This document shows positions 16,697-22,218 of a DNA stretch of 42,914 nucleotides, one piece after another. Origin of the DNA: Bdellovibrionales bacterium (GTDB lineage: Bacteria > Bdellovibrionota > Bdellovibrionia > Bdellovibrionales > JAGQZY01); NCBI GenBank assembly GCA_020435205.1, contig JAGQZY010000014.1, forward strand, positions 1-42,914, read 5' to 3'. Below the pieces are notes generated by a model, which did not search any database, was not told where the DNA came from, and saw nothing but the letters and a program-made list of their open reading frames with translations. Made by a program: the position numbers and the translations under genes. Position 1 is the first letter of the stretch. Each line of letters begins with the position of its first letter.

Positions 16697-17567
16697 AAAA
16701 ACAGGGCGTTTTTCGTCTTTTGATGGCACCCAAGTCTACTATGAAGTTCGCGGAGAGGGCCGTCCGATCATTTTTTGCTATGGCATTGCCTGTCTTTTCA
16801 ACCATTGGACTCATCAGATTGATTTTTTCTCGCGCTTCCAGCAAACGATTCTTTTTGATTATCGTGGGCATCATCAAACGCCGATCCCAGAGGAAAAGGA
16901 TAATCTAACGATTCAGGCCCTTGCTGATGATTTAATTGCGCTCTGTGAACATTTAAATATTGAGAAGGCCGACTTCGTTGGTCACAGCTTTGGGGTTCAG
17001 GTTTTGCTCTTAGCTTACAAAAGGCGACCTGATCTTTTTGGCCACCTTGTCTTTGTCAACGGTCTTTACCGCAATCCCTTTGAGGCTTTTTTGTCTGCAC
17101 CCGACGCGGTTGAGGTTATTAACCAAGCCAAAAAAATGTACAATCAGGCGCCACAAATTTTTCACTTTTTGTGGGAAAGGGGCGTAACCAATCCCTTACT
17201 CATCCCAGTGAGTTCTTTTTTAGGTGGATTTAATCTTTCTAAGACCGCGATGAAAGACATAGAAATTTATGCTAGAGGTGTTTCGGCTATAGATATCCGA
17301 GTCTTTCTTACTTTTTTTGAACAGATGATTGAATTTAATCAAGAAGAGCTTCTTACCAAAATCAAGGTTCCGACCCTTATCATCTGCGGATCTAAGGACG
17401 CGCTGACGCCGCTTGATGAACAGAACAAAATGAAAGAATTAATACCTAATAGCGAGCTGCAGGTGGTTCCCTATGGGTCCCACTGTACGCAGCTCGACTT
17501 TCCAGAAATGGTCAACTTGAAAATTCAGCAGTTTATCAACTTAAAGCCTAGAGCTTTGCACACTTAA
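16671..17567 (+). CDS. Alpha/beta-hydrolase
   Basis: 298 residues, typical of single-domain alpha/beta-hydrolase enzymes. Visible elements are the oxyanion region IIFCYGIACLFNHW, the DYRGHHQT turn, the nucleophile elbow VGHSFGVQ (Ser), the acid in CGSKDALTP, and the catalytic His in GSHCTQLDFPE. The substrate is not predictable; esterase, lactonase or haloperoxidase-like enzymes share this pattern. Two adjacent ATGs (16671 and 16674) are possible starts. The 3' end overlaps the convergent lipoprotein gene by 20 bases. Confidence 0.88.
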   Translation: MMDLDSVPKKTGRFSSFDGTQVYYEVRGEGRPIIFCYGIACLFNHWTHQIDFFSRFQQTILFDYRGHHQTPIPEEKDNLTIQALADDLIALCEHLNIEKADFVGHSFGVQVLLLAYKRRPDLFGHLVFVNGLYRNPFEAFLSAPDAVEVINQAKKMYNQAPQIFHFLWERGVTNPLLIPVSSFLGGFNLSKTAMKDIEIYARGVSAIDIRVFLTFFEQMIEFNQEELLTKIKVPTLIICGSKDALTPLDEQNKMKELIPNSELQVVPYGSHCTQLDFPEMVNLKIQQFINLKPRALHT

Positions 17568-18120
17568 CTTTGTAAGAACCTTTCTTGGTTCCGCTCTTGT
17601 TGTAATTGTAAACTTCAACACTGAGGGTTTTGCTTTTCACGTTATAGTCGAAGGCCAGCTTATCTCCCAAGGTTTCCTTGTTACAGAGAGTGATCACTCG
17701 ACGATTTTGAAAATCAGGGATAAGGACAATGATTCGTTTAGCTTGGCTAGAGTTACCCCAATGGGTCATGATGAGCTTAGTTCCACCAACAGTAAAGGGT
17801 TGTGGTGCACCCTGTCTGCCGGAAAACATATCATCCAAGCTTGGCGCCTCCGAAGTTTCTCCATCAGGAGTGGTCATTGCCATGGGTTCACCATCGGGAC
17901 TGTCAGCTTTAAAAGCAATATCTCCGCGACACTCTTGACCAGCCTGTACAGCCTCTCTCTGGAAATAAAGGACATCTTCTTTAGAGTTATAACAAGTGCT
18001 CCAATCGTTATCAGAAGCTGGAGAACGTTTGCCATCAGCTGTTGCCGCCACCGAAAGGGTGGTGCAGTTGGCTAAGAGTAAAAAAGAAGAACTGACAATT
18101 AGAGTGGTTAGGCTTTTCAT
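17548..18120 (-). CDS. Putative secreted lipoprotein
   Basis: 190 residues starting at MKSLTTLIVSSS, with a lipobox-like LLLANC (Cys near residue 19). The mature part has an acidic, Asp/Glu/Pro-rich middle and four further Cys. I recognise no domain. The start overlaps the stop of the SLT-like gene by one base (TAATG), so the pair are almost certainly coupled and may act in the same envelope process. Confidence 0.72.
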   Translation of the reverse strand: MKSLTTLIVSSSFLLLANCTTLSVAATADGKRSPASDNDWSTCYNSKEDVLYFQREAVQAGQECRGDIAFKADSPDGEPMAMTTPDGETSEAPSLDDMFSGRQGAPQPFTVGGTKLIMTHWGNSSQAKRIIVLIPDFQNRRVITLCNKETLGDKLAFDYNVKSKTLSVEVYNYNKSGTKKGSYKVKCAKL

Positions 18121-19364
18121 TAATGGCTCGCTTTGTTTAAACATGATTTTAACTTTCCTTCGGAGTATCCGCTCTTTTTCCCAACATTACGGGTGTAAAT
18201 ACCCTTCATGCAACTATAGCAACTGGTCACCCGTGCAGCATAGGTATATTTGGTTTTCGACCCATTGTACATGACCGCAAGCTTTTTATAAAGGGCTTCG
18301 CTTTCTCCTTTGCTCGCGGAATTTACGGCATTCATATAAGTGGCTTTCCTATAAAGTACAGCATGATGAAGGTCGGCTTGGGCTAAAGTCGAACGAACCA
18401 TTTTTGCCTTTTCTTGGGAGGCACTCAAGCCAACAAACCCAGGGGTGACAGACTTCACGTGTTTTCGTACGTAGGTGTGGGTACTCCAGATCACTTGGTA
18501 CATTCCCGCTTCACCGGCCATACCTTTTGCATTGGGGTGAAAATGGGATTCACGGTACGAAATACAGGCACTGAATCTAGGATCAGGGGTAAACTGAGGG
18601 CGCAACTTATTAATTTGAAGAACATCTCTCATAACGAGCTCAGCCCGAGAAGCTAAACTCTTGTTTCTTAGACAACTGGTATTGGCATAGTTTCGCGTGA
18701 AGGTTGTGTTACTGCAGTTATAAACATTCTGGGTTCCGCTGGGGCCAGCTCCATTGTCTTTGTCATCTTTATCAACGCCCCCATTATCTGTGGTTTCGCC
18801 ACCGCCACCGGTAAACTTGCCAGCATTTGGAGAGTCGGGAAACTCGGTGTTGAAATTAGCCACTTCACTGACTTGAGCGCGACGAGTGCGATACTGGGCC
18901 TTATCAACATTGCGAAGGATATAGTCGAGCGCCACAAAGCCGATGGACTCGCGACCTTGAGTATCAATGGCTGAATTGGGTGATTTGATGATCTTAACTG
19001 GGTAACAAACTTCTCCGCCACAACCAGAAGTGGGCTTAAGAGCTGCATACTTTGGATCATTATTAGCTTTGTTCGTCCAATTCCGAATAGTGGCAGCAAA
19101 ATCAATTTGTCCATTGGTATCCAGCACCGAGACTCCATCAGGAAATTGGATCACTGATCCTTTGGGTAGAACACCCACAACGTCTCTGCTGTCTCGGTGA
19201 CGAAATCTCATATTAACGTTGCCAAGTTCTAAAAAGCTTTTGGTCGTTTGACGAGTATTCTCGGTAATGTCAGCATGGGCTGGGGTAAGGAAAGAAAAAC
19301 TAACAAATAATAGAAGAGCCATCCTGCTCTTAAAATTTTCACGAATGTGAATCCACTTCAACAT
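18120..19364 (-). CDS. Secreted SLT-like lytic transglycosylase with SH3-like N-terminus
   Basis: 414 residues. The ATG at 19364 has GAGGA upstream and is followed by a basic stretch and a signal peptide ending near PAHA-D. Residues ~40-175 resemble a bacterial SH3 domain (NVNMRFRHRD, LPKGSVIQF, GFVALDYI), with a Cys pair. An acidic/Gly linker follows. The C-terminal ~150 residues resemble the SLT lysozyme-like fold: CISYRESHFHPNAKG with a candidate catalytic Glu near residue 268, then GEAGMYQV. These would cleave or bind peptidoglycan. Sequence divergence from standard SLT is notable, and activity is inferred. It is the upstream partner of a lipoprotein in a two-gene unit with its own promoter-like sequence. 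Confidence 0.72.
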   Translation of the reverse strand: MLKWIHIRENFKSRMALLLFVSFSFLTPAHADITENTRQTTKSFLELGNVNMRFRHRDSRDVVGVLPKGSVIQFPDGVSVLDTNGQIDFAATIRNWTNKANNDPKYAALKPTSGCGGEVCYPVKIIKSPNSAIDTQGRESIGFVALDYILRNVDKAQYRTRRAQVSEVANFNTEFPDSPNAGKFTGGGGETTDNGGVDKDDKDNGAGPSGTQNVYNCSNTTFTRNYANTSCLRNKSLASRAELVMRDVLQINKLRPQFTPDPRFSACISYRESHFHPNAKGMAGEAGMYQVIWSTHTYVRKHVKSVTPGFVGLSASQEKAKMVRSTLAQADLHHAVLYRKATYMNAVNSASKGESEALYKKLAVMYNGSKTKYTYAARVTSCYSCMKGIYTRNVGKKSGYSEGKLKSCLNKASH

Positions 19365-19484
19365 ACTATCATCCTCAGGTTTCGGCCAACTTTGGGTTGG
19401 TAATGTTCTAAAGTTCAAGACTCATACCAGAATCAGGGCGGTCTTATCGAAATGTCTCGTTTTGAGATCGGGAATTCCCTTGAA

Positions 19485-19516: not shown

Positions 19517-19533
19517 TGTCTCAAGATTAGACA
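19517..19533. promoter_or_regulatory. TGTC-N9-GACA dyad, copy A
   Basis: TGTCTCAAGATTAGACA, an inverted repeat that can be extended to GGTGTCT/AGACACC (19515-19535). It is adjacent to the promoter of the SLT-like operon. It is 15/17 identical to copy B (21233-21249) and 14/17 to copy C (22202-22218). It is probably a regulator binding site. As a hairpin it could alternatively end the transcript of the gene that stops at 19550, but there is no T-run. Confidence 0.5.
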
Positions 19534-19549
19534 CCCGGAAACATTAAGG

Positions 19550-20020
19550 TTATTTGCGCTTTCTCCACTCACAGCGGTAGCTATCACCAGCGTTTTTCAC
19601 ATATTCGGTCTTTTCGTAAAAGGCCTTATATTCTTCAAGGTTGGGGTCATAGCTCAGAGTCATGGACTCAAAAAGGTCGCTAACCACCTTGTTGCCACAA
19701 GTGATTTTGAGGGTGGCTTTCAATATGGAAGCTCTTTTTGAATCAACATTTTCAAGGGATTCGCTATATTTTTCCTTACAGGATCGACCCTTAAGGTCTT
19801 TACTATCTTCAACACCGCTACTGTCTTGGATGAAAAAGCCATGATCGCCAATTTGGACGCGAGTTTTATTATCGTAGTACTGGAAGGGGCCGGAGCCGCA
19901 TTGTTCTTCAAGCCCATCAATCAGTTGGTAATTTCCCTCTTTGAAGTACTTGATGGGACCACTGGCACAGCCTAGAGAAGGCACGCTAAAAATAAATAGA
20001 AGGATTAAATAGTTTTTCAT
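19550..20020 (-). CDS. Putative lipoprotein, unknown function
   Basis: 156 residues beginning MKNYLILLFIFSVPSLGCAS, a lipoprotein signal with Cys near residue 18. The mature part is charged and has four other Cys, spaced so that two disulfides are possible. No domain recognised. AAGGTG precedes the ATG, and the gene begins 9 bases after the stop of the Cys-repeat protein, so the two form one unit. Confidence 0.7.
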   Translation of the reverse strand: MKNYLILLFIFSVPSLGCASGPIKYFKEGNYQLIDGLEEQCGSGPFQYYDNKTRVQIGDHGFFIQDSSGVEDSKDLKGRSCKEKYSESLENVDSKRASILKATLKITCGNKVVSDLFESMTLSYDPNLEEYKAFYEKTEYVKNAGDSYRCEWRKRK

Positions 20021-20029
20021 TTTCACACC

Positions 20030-21094
20030 TTAGCCATTACAGCTTGTTGTATAACGGTTGTCAATTTTACAGTAATTTGTTGATCGGTTTCCACAATCCT
20101 TAGCAGGCCATAGGTACTTTCCGACCTTGCAGTATCGGTCTTGGGTCGATGCATTTTGCCTGTCACCGGCGCCTTGGTTGCTAGCGACATCGCCACAGTT
20201 TTTAGTATAGCGCCCGCGCACTTTACAATAATTTGTGGGTCGGCTTCCACAGTGACTGGAGTGCCAGAGGACATTGCCAACTTTACAGAAACGAGGACCG
20301 GAAGCTGGGTTCGCTGGAGAGCTATTATCCTTGTTGTCGTCTTTGGCCACGGCTCCACATTGACTGGTATAGATACCATTCACTTTACAGTAATTAGTGG
20401 GGCGGTTCCCACAGTTTCTAGCCGCCCAAAGCACTCGACCCACCTTACAGTAGCGATCACTGGAATCCGGTGCGCCGCCAGGGGAGTCATTGCCACCAGC
20501 TCCTGCATCGGCGACACTGCCGCCCCTGCGAGCCAAACCTTTGCAATTTGGAGTTTTGCCACACTTGATTGTTCCAAAATAACGAGCATTGGTTTTTTCC
20601 AAGATGTCGCGGCAGCAAAGAACTTGCCTAGAAAAGGAGGTGGTAATATCTCCGGCTAAACAGTTTTTGCCGCGCCCGTTTCTTTGTCGGATCCGTTTAC
20701 TTTTTTCAATGGCGCAAATACCAAACCCAACGTGAGGGTTTTTTGCTTTTTTGGGATCATGGTAAAGGCTGGGCGAACAACTACTTCCTGATTCAGCAAC
20801 GAAGAGTTTTGAATAGCAATCAGCGGCACGGCTTCCAAGGAGCTGGGTGATGATTCTATTTTTTTCAGAAGATTTGCATTTGTTATGCCTCATTGGTCCA
20901 ACTCCAAAAGGGCAGGCTCGAGATGTGCGGCGCTGAGTCTTTCGCCTTTGACCATTGCGAGTGGTTTCGCTAGCGACAGATCGTGAAGGAGCCGATAAAA
21001 CATCTGATGCAGAAAAATTGATATTGGACATTGCAAAGGAGTCCATTGAGAAAAGACATATTATGAGGGCAACTTGAAAACGTACAATATTCAT
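20030..21094 (-). CDS. Secreted protein with three four-Cys repeats and a possible lysozyme-like domain
   Basis: 354 residues with a signal peptide ending near DSFA-M. A Lys/Arg-rich segment follows. A Cys-rich domain (about residues 75-190) contains AESGSSCSPSLY and VGFGICAIEKS, an order reminiscent of the SLT lysozyme fold (catalytic Glu, then a Gly-rich turn). This is a weak inference. A Gly/Asp linker leads to three tandem repeats at about 215-247, 269-301 and 321-354. Their shared pattern is YCKVG, LW, CG-x-R-x-TNYCK, then RYT or IYT, and CG or CNG, with four Cys in each. The repeats may be disulfide-stabilised binding modules. First gene of a two-gene unit; a terminator and a dyad lie upstream. 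Confidence 0.75.
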   Translation of the reverse strand: MNIVRFQVALIICLFSMDSFAMSNINFSASDVLSAPSRSVASETTRNGQRRKTQRRTSRACPFGVGPMRHNKCKSSEKNRIITQLLGSRAADCYSKLFVAESGSSCSPSLYHDPKKAKNPHVGFGICAIEKSKRIRQRNGRGKNCLAGDITTSFSRQVLCCRDILEKTNARYFGTIKCGKTPNCKGLARRGGSVADAGAGGNDSPGGAPDSSDRYCKVGRVLWAARNCGNRPTNYCKVNGIYTSQCGAVAKDDNKDNSSPANPASGPRFCKVGNVLWHSSHCGSRPTNYCKVRGRYTKNCGDVASNQGAGDRQNASTQDRYCKVGKYLWPAKDCGNRSTNYCKIDNRYTTSCNG

Positions 21095-21232
21095 AATTGA
21101 AAACCATCCATGCTTAAAATTTCAAAAGGCGTCATGCCTTGCTGTTGGTAAAAGCAAAATGAATGCCGATGTGCAAGGTCTCTATTGGATTTGAGGGGCA
21201 AAAAATCGGATTCGCTCTATTTTGTCAACGGC

Positions 21233-21249
21233 TGTCTCAAAATTAAACA
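21233..21249. promoter_or_regulatory. TGTC-N9-AACA dyad, copy B
   Basis: TGTCTCAAAATTAAACA, 15/17 identical to copy A. It sits 4 bases upstream of a perfect TTGACA on the minus strand (21223-21228), ahead of the Cys-repeat gene. No good -10 follows at 17-18 bases, only a T-rich tract, so the promoter itself is uncertain. Confidence 0.45.
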
Positions 21250-21285
21250 ATGGCGAAAAGATGGGGTAGAGTTCCTTAAAGAACA

Positions 21286-21310
21286 AAGGCCTCAAATCTT
21301 TTGAGGCCTT
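21286..21310 (-). terminator. Rho-independent terminator after the six-repeat lipoprotein
   Basis: Perfect 11-bp stem AAGGCCTCAAA/TTTGAGGCCTT with a 3-base loop, 13 bases downstream of the lipoprotein stop. On the minus strand it is followed by a T-rich tract (TTGTTCTTT). It separates this gene from the next transcription unit. Confidence 0.75.
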
Positions 21311-21323
21311 AAAAGAGTTTTAT

Positions 21324-22064
21324 TTAGAGGCAGAAAACAAAGGCGCCGGTGGATTTTAGCAAAATCTCACCACGGCAGTCATTTCCATTACACGTCACTG
21401 CGCGAAGCTGTCCTTGGTAATTTACATATTGATAGGCTCCTACGCAGGATTCGCTAGGATAGCTAGTTGGAGTGCCACCTGAGCTTGAGTTACAAAGACT
21501 AGCTTGAACGGCATTTTGATTTCGGTCGTAACAAGTGTTGCCACTGACGTAGTAGTTTAAAGTAAAGATACAAGAACTGAGATCAGATGGCTGAAAAGTG
21601 GATCTGTTCCAACAGGTTTTGTTCTGAATTGCAAAAGTAAGATTTGTACAATTACTACTGTCAACCGCCGCATGGCTGAAGTTTCTACAGGTGCCATCAG
21701 AGATATAGAACTGAGCAGCCGTGCTTGAAGCTGTACAACTGGTGCTGGGTTGGGCTTGGCCCGATTGGTTTAAGCAAGTGCTGCCATTGAGGAAGAAGGT
21801 GTTGTTCGTGCAATTGGAAAATCCACTTTGTATGGTTCCGTCGTTAGCATAGCAGACACCATTACTGATATAGTAAGACAAGCTATTGCAGTTGCTAATA
21901 TCGACATTGTTGTTGTTGTTGTCATAGCAAAGGTTGTTGGACTTATAATAGGTCGTCGTGGGCGTGGCCGGTGCGGTGTTATTGTCACTTTTTCCACATG
22001 AGCTCAAGATAAATGCGCCCAATAAAAACAAGGGGACAAGGCTAAGGTTTCTAAAATTTTTCAT
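21324..22064 (-). CDS. Lipoprotein with six two-Cys repeats
   Basis: 246 residues from the ATG at 22064, preceded by a strong AGGAGG. The lipobox GAFILSSC places the lipidated Cys at residue 23. From about residue 39 to 195 there are six imperfect repeats of about 25 residues, each starting with an aromatic pair and Ser/Asn, then a Cys about 8 residues in and a second about 13-17 later (for example YYISNGVCYANDG and YYVSGNTCYDRNQ). They are rich in Asn, Ser and Thr. The C-terminal 50 residues hold three more Cys. A surface or periplasmic adhesive or binding role is plausible but unproven. A poly-Asn run is encoded by a GTT-like simple repeat near 21905-21920. Confidence 0.78.
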   Translation of the reverse strand: MKNFRNLSLVPLFLLGAFILSSCGKSDNNTAPATPTTTYYKSNNLCYDNNNNNVDISNCNSLSYYISNGVCYANDGTIQSGFSNCTNNTFFLNGSTCLNQSGQAQPSTSCTASSTAAQFYISDGTCRNFSHAAVDSSNCTNLTFAIQNKTCWNRSTFQPSDLSSCIFTLNYYVSGNTCYDRNQNAVQASLCNSSSGGTPTSYPSESCVGAYQYVNYQGQLRAVTCNGNDCRGEILLKSTGAFVFCL

Positions 22065-22165
22065 AAGGTCCTCCTGGTACCAATAAAAAGGGAACAGCAA
22101 GAGTCCTGCCAAGTCGGGGGGGTAAAAATAGAGTTTTATTATATAGTTATTTCGATGAGCTCAGA

Positions 22166-22195
22166 TTTAAAGAACTCAATCCTGTAAGTTGTCAC
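22166..22195 (-). promoter_or_regulatory. Possible promoter of the six-repeat lipoprotein
   Basis: GTGACA on the minus strand (22190-22195), an 18-base spacer, then TTTAAA (22166-22171). Another candidate -10, a perfect TATAAT at 22138-22143, lies closer to the gene but lacks a good -35. Either would give a leader of roughly 70-95 bases. Confidence 0.3.
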
Positions 22196-22201
22196 CGGGC
22201 T

Positions 22202-22218
22202 TGTCTGAAGAGTTGACA
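22202..22218. promoter_or_regulatory. TGTC-N9-GACA dyad, copy C
   Basis: TGTCTGAAGAGTTGACA, 14/17 identical to copy A with both half-sites intact. It lies 6 bases upstream of the GTGACA hexamer for the six-repeat lipoprotein, and 20 bases after the biotin-carrier gene ends. Confidence 0.4.

Follow-up and report, generated by a model that had tools for sequence, protein, structure and literature searches.

The window analysed here (the whole of contig C55, 42,914 nucleotides, from G000, a 2.83 Mb draft genome of the order Bdellovibrionales) carries, between positions 17548 and 22112, a minus-strand cluster of genes for predicted exported proteins (Table 1). Genes were called, signal peptides assigned and sigma-54 promoters scored throughout by simple scripted rules, the signal-peptide script being a crude one. 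The three principal genes, A, B and C, had been given in a preliminary description as those of an SLT-like enzyme, a four-Cys-repeat protein and a six-repeat lipoprotein; the last two assignments stand, whilst gene A matches the Pfam SLT family only weakly (E=5.7e-4; 19.9 bits, below the cut-off of 21.3). The lipoprotein gene directly 3' of gene A and the small secreted protein gene directly 3' of gene B are each probably in an operon with their upstream neighbour. Orthologues of the A, B and C genes were absent at the syntenic place in a relative of the same genus (G001), where the cluster is missing beside the biotin carboxylase genes (L211), so that it looks lineage-specific.

Table 1. Features of the gene cluster and its upstream regions, and one candidate regulator gene elsewhere in the same genome (positions refer to the window unless a contig is given).
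Feature	Position	Strand	Description
Lipoprotein gene directly 3' of gene A	17548..18144	-	ORF with lipobox LLANC by crude rule
Gene A, secreted protein	18120..19364	-	ORF with signal peptide by crude rule; weak SLT transglycosylase-like domain
Predicted sigma-54 -24/-12 promoter, gene A	19414..19429	-	TGGTATGAGTCTTGAA; score 13.3
Possible weaker second site, gene A	19453..19469		TGTCTCGTTTTGAGATC; matrix score 11.0, third highest in the window
Site A	19517..19533		TGTCTCAAGATTAGACA; YGTYTCA-N3-TGARACR family, 1 mismatch; matrix score 18.6
Small secreted protein gene directly 3' of gene B	19550..20020	-	ORF with signal peptide by crude rule
Gene B, secreted protein	20030..21094	-	ORF with signal peptide by crude rule; four Cys-containing repeats
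Predicted sigma-54 -24/-12 promoter, gene B	21153..21168	-	CGGCATTCATTTTGCT; score 15.3
Site B	21233..21249		TGTCTCAAAATTAAACA; YGTYTCA-N3-TGARACR family, 1 mismatch; matrix score 18.9
Gene C, six-repeat lipoprotein	21324..22064	-	ORF with lipobox LSSC by crude rule
Predicted sigma-54 -24/-12 promoter, gene C	22096..22111	-	TGGCAGGACTCTTGCT; score 14.5
Reported copy C	22202..22218		TGTCTGAAGAGTTGACA; not a member of the family; matrix score 2.0
L149, sigma-54 activator	G000:C82:13452-15047	-	190-residue N-terminal part without a Pfam match

Ahead of each of the three genes lies one of three 17-mers that the preliminary description had taken as copies of a TGTC-N9-RACA dyad. All three were confirmed at their coordinates, TGTCTCAAAATTAAACA sharing 15 and TGTCTGAAGAGTTGACA 14 of 17 bases with TGTCTCAAGATTAGACA, and B and C sharing 12 of 17 with each other. 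As a motif, TGTC-N9-RACA did not hold up, since it was enriched neither in the window (4 matches with up to three mismatches vs. 5.5 expected; for TGTC-N9-GACA with up to one mismatch, 17 vs. 14) nor across the genome, where it showed no surplus above a reversed control, and it was dropped. The genome scan that had been proposed as a check did, by contrast, succeed with a stricter palindrome, YGTYTCA-N3-TGARACR, which emerged among the one-mismatch matches of the original pattern and is enriched ahead of secreted genes. It occurs 12 times exactly in the genome vs. 0 for the same pattern read backwards, and 49 vs. 8 times with up to one mismatch. Its spacing corresponds to N9 between TGTC/GACA-type ends, with a 3-bp spacer of any base and with positions 1 and 4 degenerate.

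When the window was scored with a matrix built from sites elsewhere, B (18.9) and A (18.6) ranked highest, each with a chance expectation of 0.017, whilst the score of C (2.0) is at the chance level, with approximately 65 such positions expected, which rules C out as a member of the family. The idea of three copies of one site therefore survives for A and B and fails for C. An identical copy of the A sequence is found elsewhere in the genome (G000:C66:18667-18683), and a weaker match between A and its gene may assist A.

The palindrome is a property of the order as a whole. Of 79 genomes searched (that of the window and 78 Bdellovibrionales relatives), 78 contained exact matches, mostly at 5–20 copies per genome compared to 0–2 for the reversed control, whilst in 138 genomes of the phylum from outside the order the motif was near the control level. 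The one complete relative within the order in which no exact site was found (G046) nevertheless encodes PilR-like, L145-type and L149-type proteins, which are considered below as regulators. The genus Bdellovibrio falls within this order.

Approximately 40 of the 49 sites in the window's own genome lie ahead of genes with a signal peptide or lipobox, at distances of tens to ~230 bp and sometimes between two divergent genes of this kind; the distance from site to start codon varies widely. In the other Bdellovibrionales genomes 33 of 43 exact sites were likewise ahead of secreted or lipoprotein genes. Within the examined stretches of the own genome, genes with a site comprised 48 secreted and 10 other genes, and those without a site 47 and 99 (p=4e-11), a ratio that is a contrast within these stretches, mostly chosen for their sites, and not a genome-wide rate. 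A and B are thus two instances of an order-wide operator ahead of exported-protein genes. Two targets in the own genome resemble prepilins. Many target lipoproteins (L064, L116, L117, L125, L038 and others) have the lipobox FQNCG or something close to it, which suggests that they are related as a family, and in two families of the order a site is found ahead of a spoVG-like gene (L113, G000:C87:1734-1750; L083, in G049), which suggests a regulator amongst the targets. A separate sequence, GAAATCACTA, recurs in L003, L038, L124 and L006, with 6 occurrences in 328 kb vs. ~1 expected, some of them a short way 5' of genes.

The regions between the dyads and their genes point to a particular promoter class. 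Eight sigma-54 matches scoring at least 13.3 were found in the 85.8 kb of both strands of the window, and three of these are ahead of the A, B and C genes, 32–59 bp from their start codons, that of gene B having the highest sigma-54 score on either strand. These three were also the only ones of the window's 11 secreted genes to reach a score of at least 13. The elements lie 64–90 bp downstream of the reported dyads A, B and C; that of B has the complete GG-N10-GC, and at A the -12 element reads GA. All three genes hence appear to share a promoter class, though copy C is not a member of the operator family, and gene C probably shares sigma-54 control but not the palindrome. The same association was observed beyond the window: 19 of 48 site-bearing secreted genes had a sigma-54 score of at least 13 compared to 3 of 47 site-free secreted genes (p=1.6e-4), and 18 sigma-54 promoters were observed at site-bearing genes vs. 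0.23 in shuffled sequence. A sigma-54 promoter is not found at every site, with approximately 60% of site-bearing secreted genes having no clear one. Several of them carry a FliA-like -10 element instead. The regulator may work with promoters of more than one class. Once FliA scoring was extended past the -10 box, it distinguished real from shuffled sequence poorly.

Sigma-54 promoters require an enhancer-bound activator. The dyad-to-promoter distances at A (87 bp) and B (64 bp) fall within the tens to ~150 bp expected of an enhancer, and a dyad 64–87 bp 5' of a sigma-54 promoter matches the way in which NtrC-family enhancers are laid out. The genome itself encodes 12 strong matches to the sigma-54-activator domain (PF00158), and the presence of such NtrC-family activators implies that rpoN is probably also present. 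We therefore consider it probable that A and B are operators of a Bdellovibrionales-wide regulator of secreted and lipoprotein genes, often serving as a sigma-54 enhancer read by an NtrC-family activator. A dimer would bind the inverted repeat as double-stranded DNA, and at many targets, A and B included, the dyad would serve a sigma-54 promoter as its upstream enhancer. Seated there, 64–87 bp 5' of the -24/-12 promoter, an NtrC-family AAA+ activator would then drive open-complex formation. The computation shows the motif, its enrichment throughout the order, its placement ahead of genes for exported proteins and its link with sigma-54 promoters; an NtrC-family reader, an activating role and joint expression of the target genes are inferred.

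Several alternatives were weighed against this reading, beginning with the model of the preliminary description, in which three equivalent operators sit beside the -35 boxes of sigma-70-type promoters. The -35-like hexamers are indeed present on the minus strand, past the dyads of A (TGTCAA, 2 bases), B (TTGACA, 4 bases) and C (GTGACA, 6 bases). At A the hexamer is part of a TGTCAA-N18-TATAAT arrangement, and 5 of 54 oriented sites have a TTGACA-like hexamer 4–5 bp past the site. Against this, C falls outside the family, most sites by far have no adjoining -35, and downstream of each of the three dyads there is a better promoter class, which favours an enhancer over an operator adjoining a -35 hexamer. 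The hexamers are probably not promoter elements, and we regard the model as a whole as improbable. Its broader proposal, a single factor acting on a secreted gene set, is well supported outside the window too, by the contrast between site-bearing and site-free genes and by the recurrence of the site across the order, whilst it loses copy C and, probably, the -35 placement.

A more serious competitor is an ordinary dimeric activator or repressor working at several sigma classes (sigma-54, FliA and perhaps sigma-70), with the sigma-54 association arising because exported-protein genes often use that factor. The sites ahead of FliA-like promoters, the wide range of site-to-start distances and the fact that no enhancer-binding-protein HTH examined follows the taxonomic range of the motif would all suit such a regulator. 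The scarcity of sigma-54 promoters amongst site-free secreted genes, on the other hand, ties the promoter class to the site and not to secretion, and a sigma-54 promoter needs an enhancer-bound activator, for which the dyad is the enriched upstream element. This explanation is accordingly rather unlikely, whilst still the strongest of the alternatives.

Two further readings concern what kind of element the palindrome is, and to each we attach only a negligible likelihood. The chromosome-organising site parS (TGTTTCACGTGAAACA; TGTTTCA-CG-TGAAACA, with a 2-bp spacer) has a half-site, TGTTTCA, nearly identical to that of the operator. A parS-like role in place of a transcriptional one was rejected because the spacer here consists of three free bases instead of CG and because the genomic context differs, the sites being spread over whole chromosomes and ahead of secreted genes with sigma-54 promoters; positions 1 and 4 of the operator are moreover degenerate. 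The inverted repeat could also pair as an RNA hairpin in a transcript leader, with seven-base arms and a 3-base loop. The variable half-site positions, though, change independently of each other (positions 1/17 symmetric in 28 of 55 sites vs. 30.4 expected; positions 4/14 in 34 of 55 vs. 31.1), which is the behaviour of a protein dimer on DNA and speaks against the hairpin, and the sites are upstream of the predicted promoters.

If the reader is an NtrC-family activator, as we favour, three proteins of the own genome are candidates: the PilR-like L147, L151 with its GlrR-like HTH, and L149, which has the motif 5' of its own gene. The PilR-like protein is 73–88% identical in 70 of 78 relatives, the other eight being lower or inseparable from paralogues, and no site was found upstream of its gene in 30 genomes. 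The HTH of L151 was the closest to that of E. coli GlrR amongst the own HTHs compared (score 105 vs. at most 67), and Pfam recognises no receiver domain in this protein. The L151 gene (on G000:C136) adjoins a protein-kinase gene. A fourth NtrC-family protein that was weighed, L145, has a nearby secreted gene that bears an exact site in three genomes (G000, G010 and G071); it was rejected as the reader since its own gene is without a site (0 of 33) and its HTH is close to conserved in motif-free members of the phylum outside the order.

The L149-type protein is single-copy in 76 of 79 genomes of the order and present in most other phylum genomes sampled. Within the order the dyad lies ~60–190 bp upstream of its gene, in 17 of 70 orthologues with up to one mismatch and in 31 of 70 with up to two; in the second batch of 40, exact sites numbered 5, one-mismatch sites 4 and two-mismatch sites 8, compared to 0, 0.1 and 0.46 expected from shuffled sequence. 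The gene often has a FliA-type promoter, and no sigma-54 match was found downstream of the site in any of 19 cases. Its HTH is near-invariant, also in relatives without the motif, which counts against the L149-type protein as the reader; taken together with the FliA-type promoter and the lack of a sigma-54 match, this suggests that it may instead be a target. A supposed second dyad near -50 of the L149-type gene was discarded, as it overlaps the FliA-type promoter. A bolder version of the hypothesis, which we put forward tentatively and think somewhat less likely to be right than wrong, is that a master regulator specific to the order governs the exported proteome, with a single operator serving sigma-54 and FliA promoters alike. 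This regulator would also control an enhancer-binding protein found throughout the phylum and so tie the attack-phase FliA programme to a second, sigma-54 programme for secreted proteins.

Amongst known systems the closest parallels are GlrR and PilR. The enterobacterial enhancer sites of GlrR (QseF), TGTC-N10-GACA, lie upstream of glmY and glmZ (PMC4987338), and the likeness extends to an inverted TGTC/GACA repeat, an NtrC-family regulator and a position upstream of sigma-54 promoters (PMC4987338). GlrR-type sites were visible upstream of glmY in E. coli, one of them beginning TGTCTC. The GlrR regulon nevertheless differs in its spacing, N10 as opposed to the N9 of the palindrome described here, in having a few small RNAs as targets compared to dozens of genes, and in that L151 is without a Pfam-recognised receiver domain. 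PilR sites in Pseudomonas and Geobacter have TGT-N11-AGA and GTCT elements as hallmarks, and 54 PilR loci with sigma-54 promoters are known from Geobacter, many of them for pili, flagella and cell wall (PMC6058289). These elements resemble the order-wide operator, which differs in its strict palindromy over 17 bp and in lying before genes for secreted proteins and lipoproteins; viewed as a PilR regulon, the data comprise sites at the two prepilin-like genes and at none of the 30 PilR-like genes.

Sigma-54 has been proposed as a controller of the bacterial exterior, covering precursor synthesis and transport, in a study whose main text makes no mention of Bdellovibrio (Francke 2011; PMC3162934). 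Our results share its envelope and lipoprotein theme under sigma-54 and differ in that one defined operator is found ahead of the exported-protein genes themselves. In B. bacteriovorus an attack-phase regulon of FliA (sigma-28) has been defined, with the consensus TTAAG-N16-CCGATA; for the third of attack-phase promoters outside that regulon no strong motif was reported there, and rpoN is unmentioned (Karunker 2013; PMC3627812). It resembles the present system in its global control of surface and secreted genes, and some of our sites are ahead of FliA-like promoters. An open-access literature search, in which hits for the half-site string together with Bdellovibrio were judged by title, found no description of the operator or regulon, and the 17-base operator with its regulon is apparently an undescribed master switch for surface and exported proteins.

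Bdellovibrio-type predators depend on secreted and surface proteins, the control of which beyond FliA is little known. An order-wide operator singles out dozens of exported proteins in each genome as probably controlled together, supplies candidate regulators, and offers a direct route to asking whether a second secretome programme is under sigma-54. Those attack-phase promoters that have no known motif could also find part of their explanation here.
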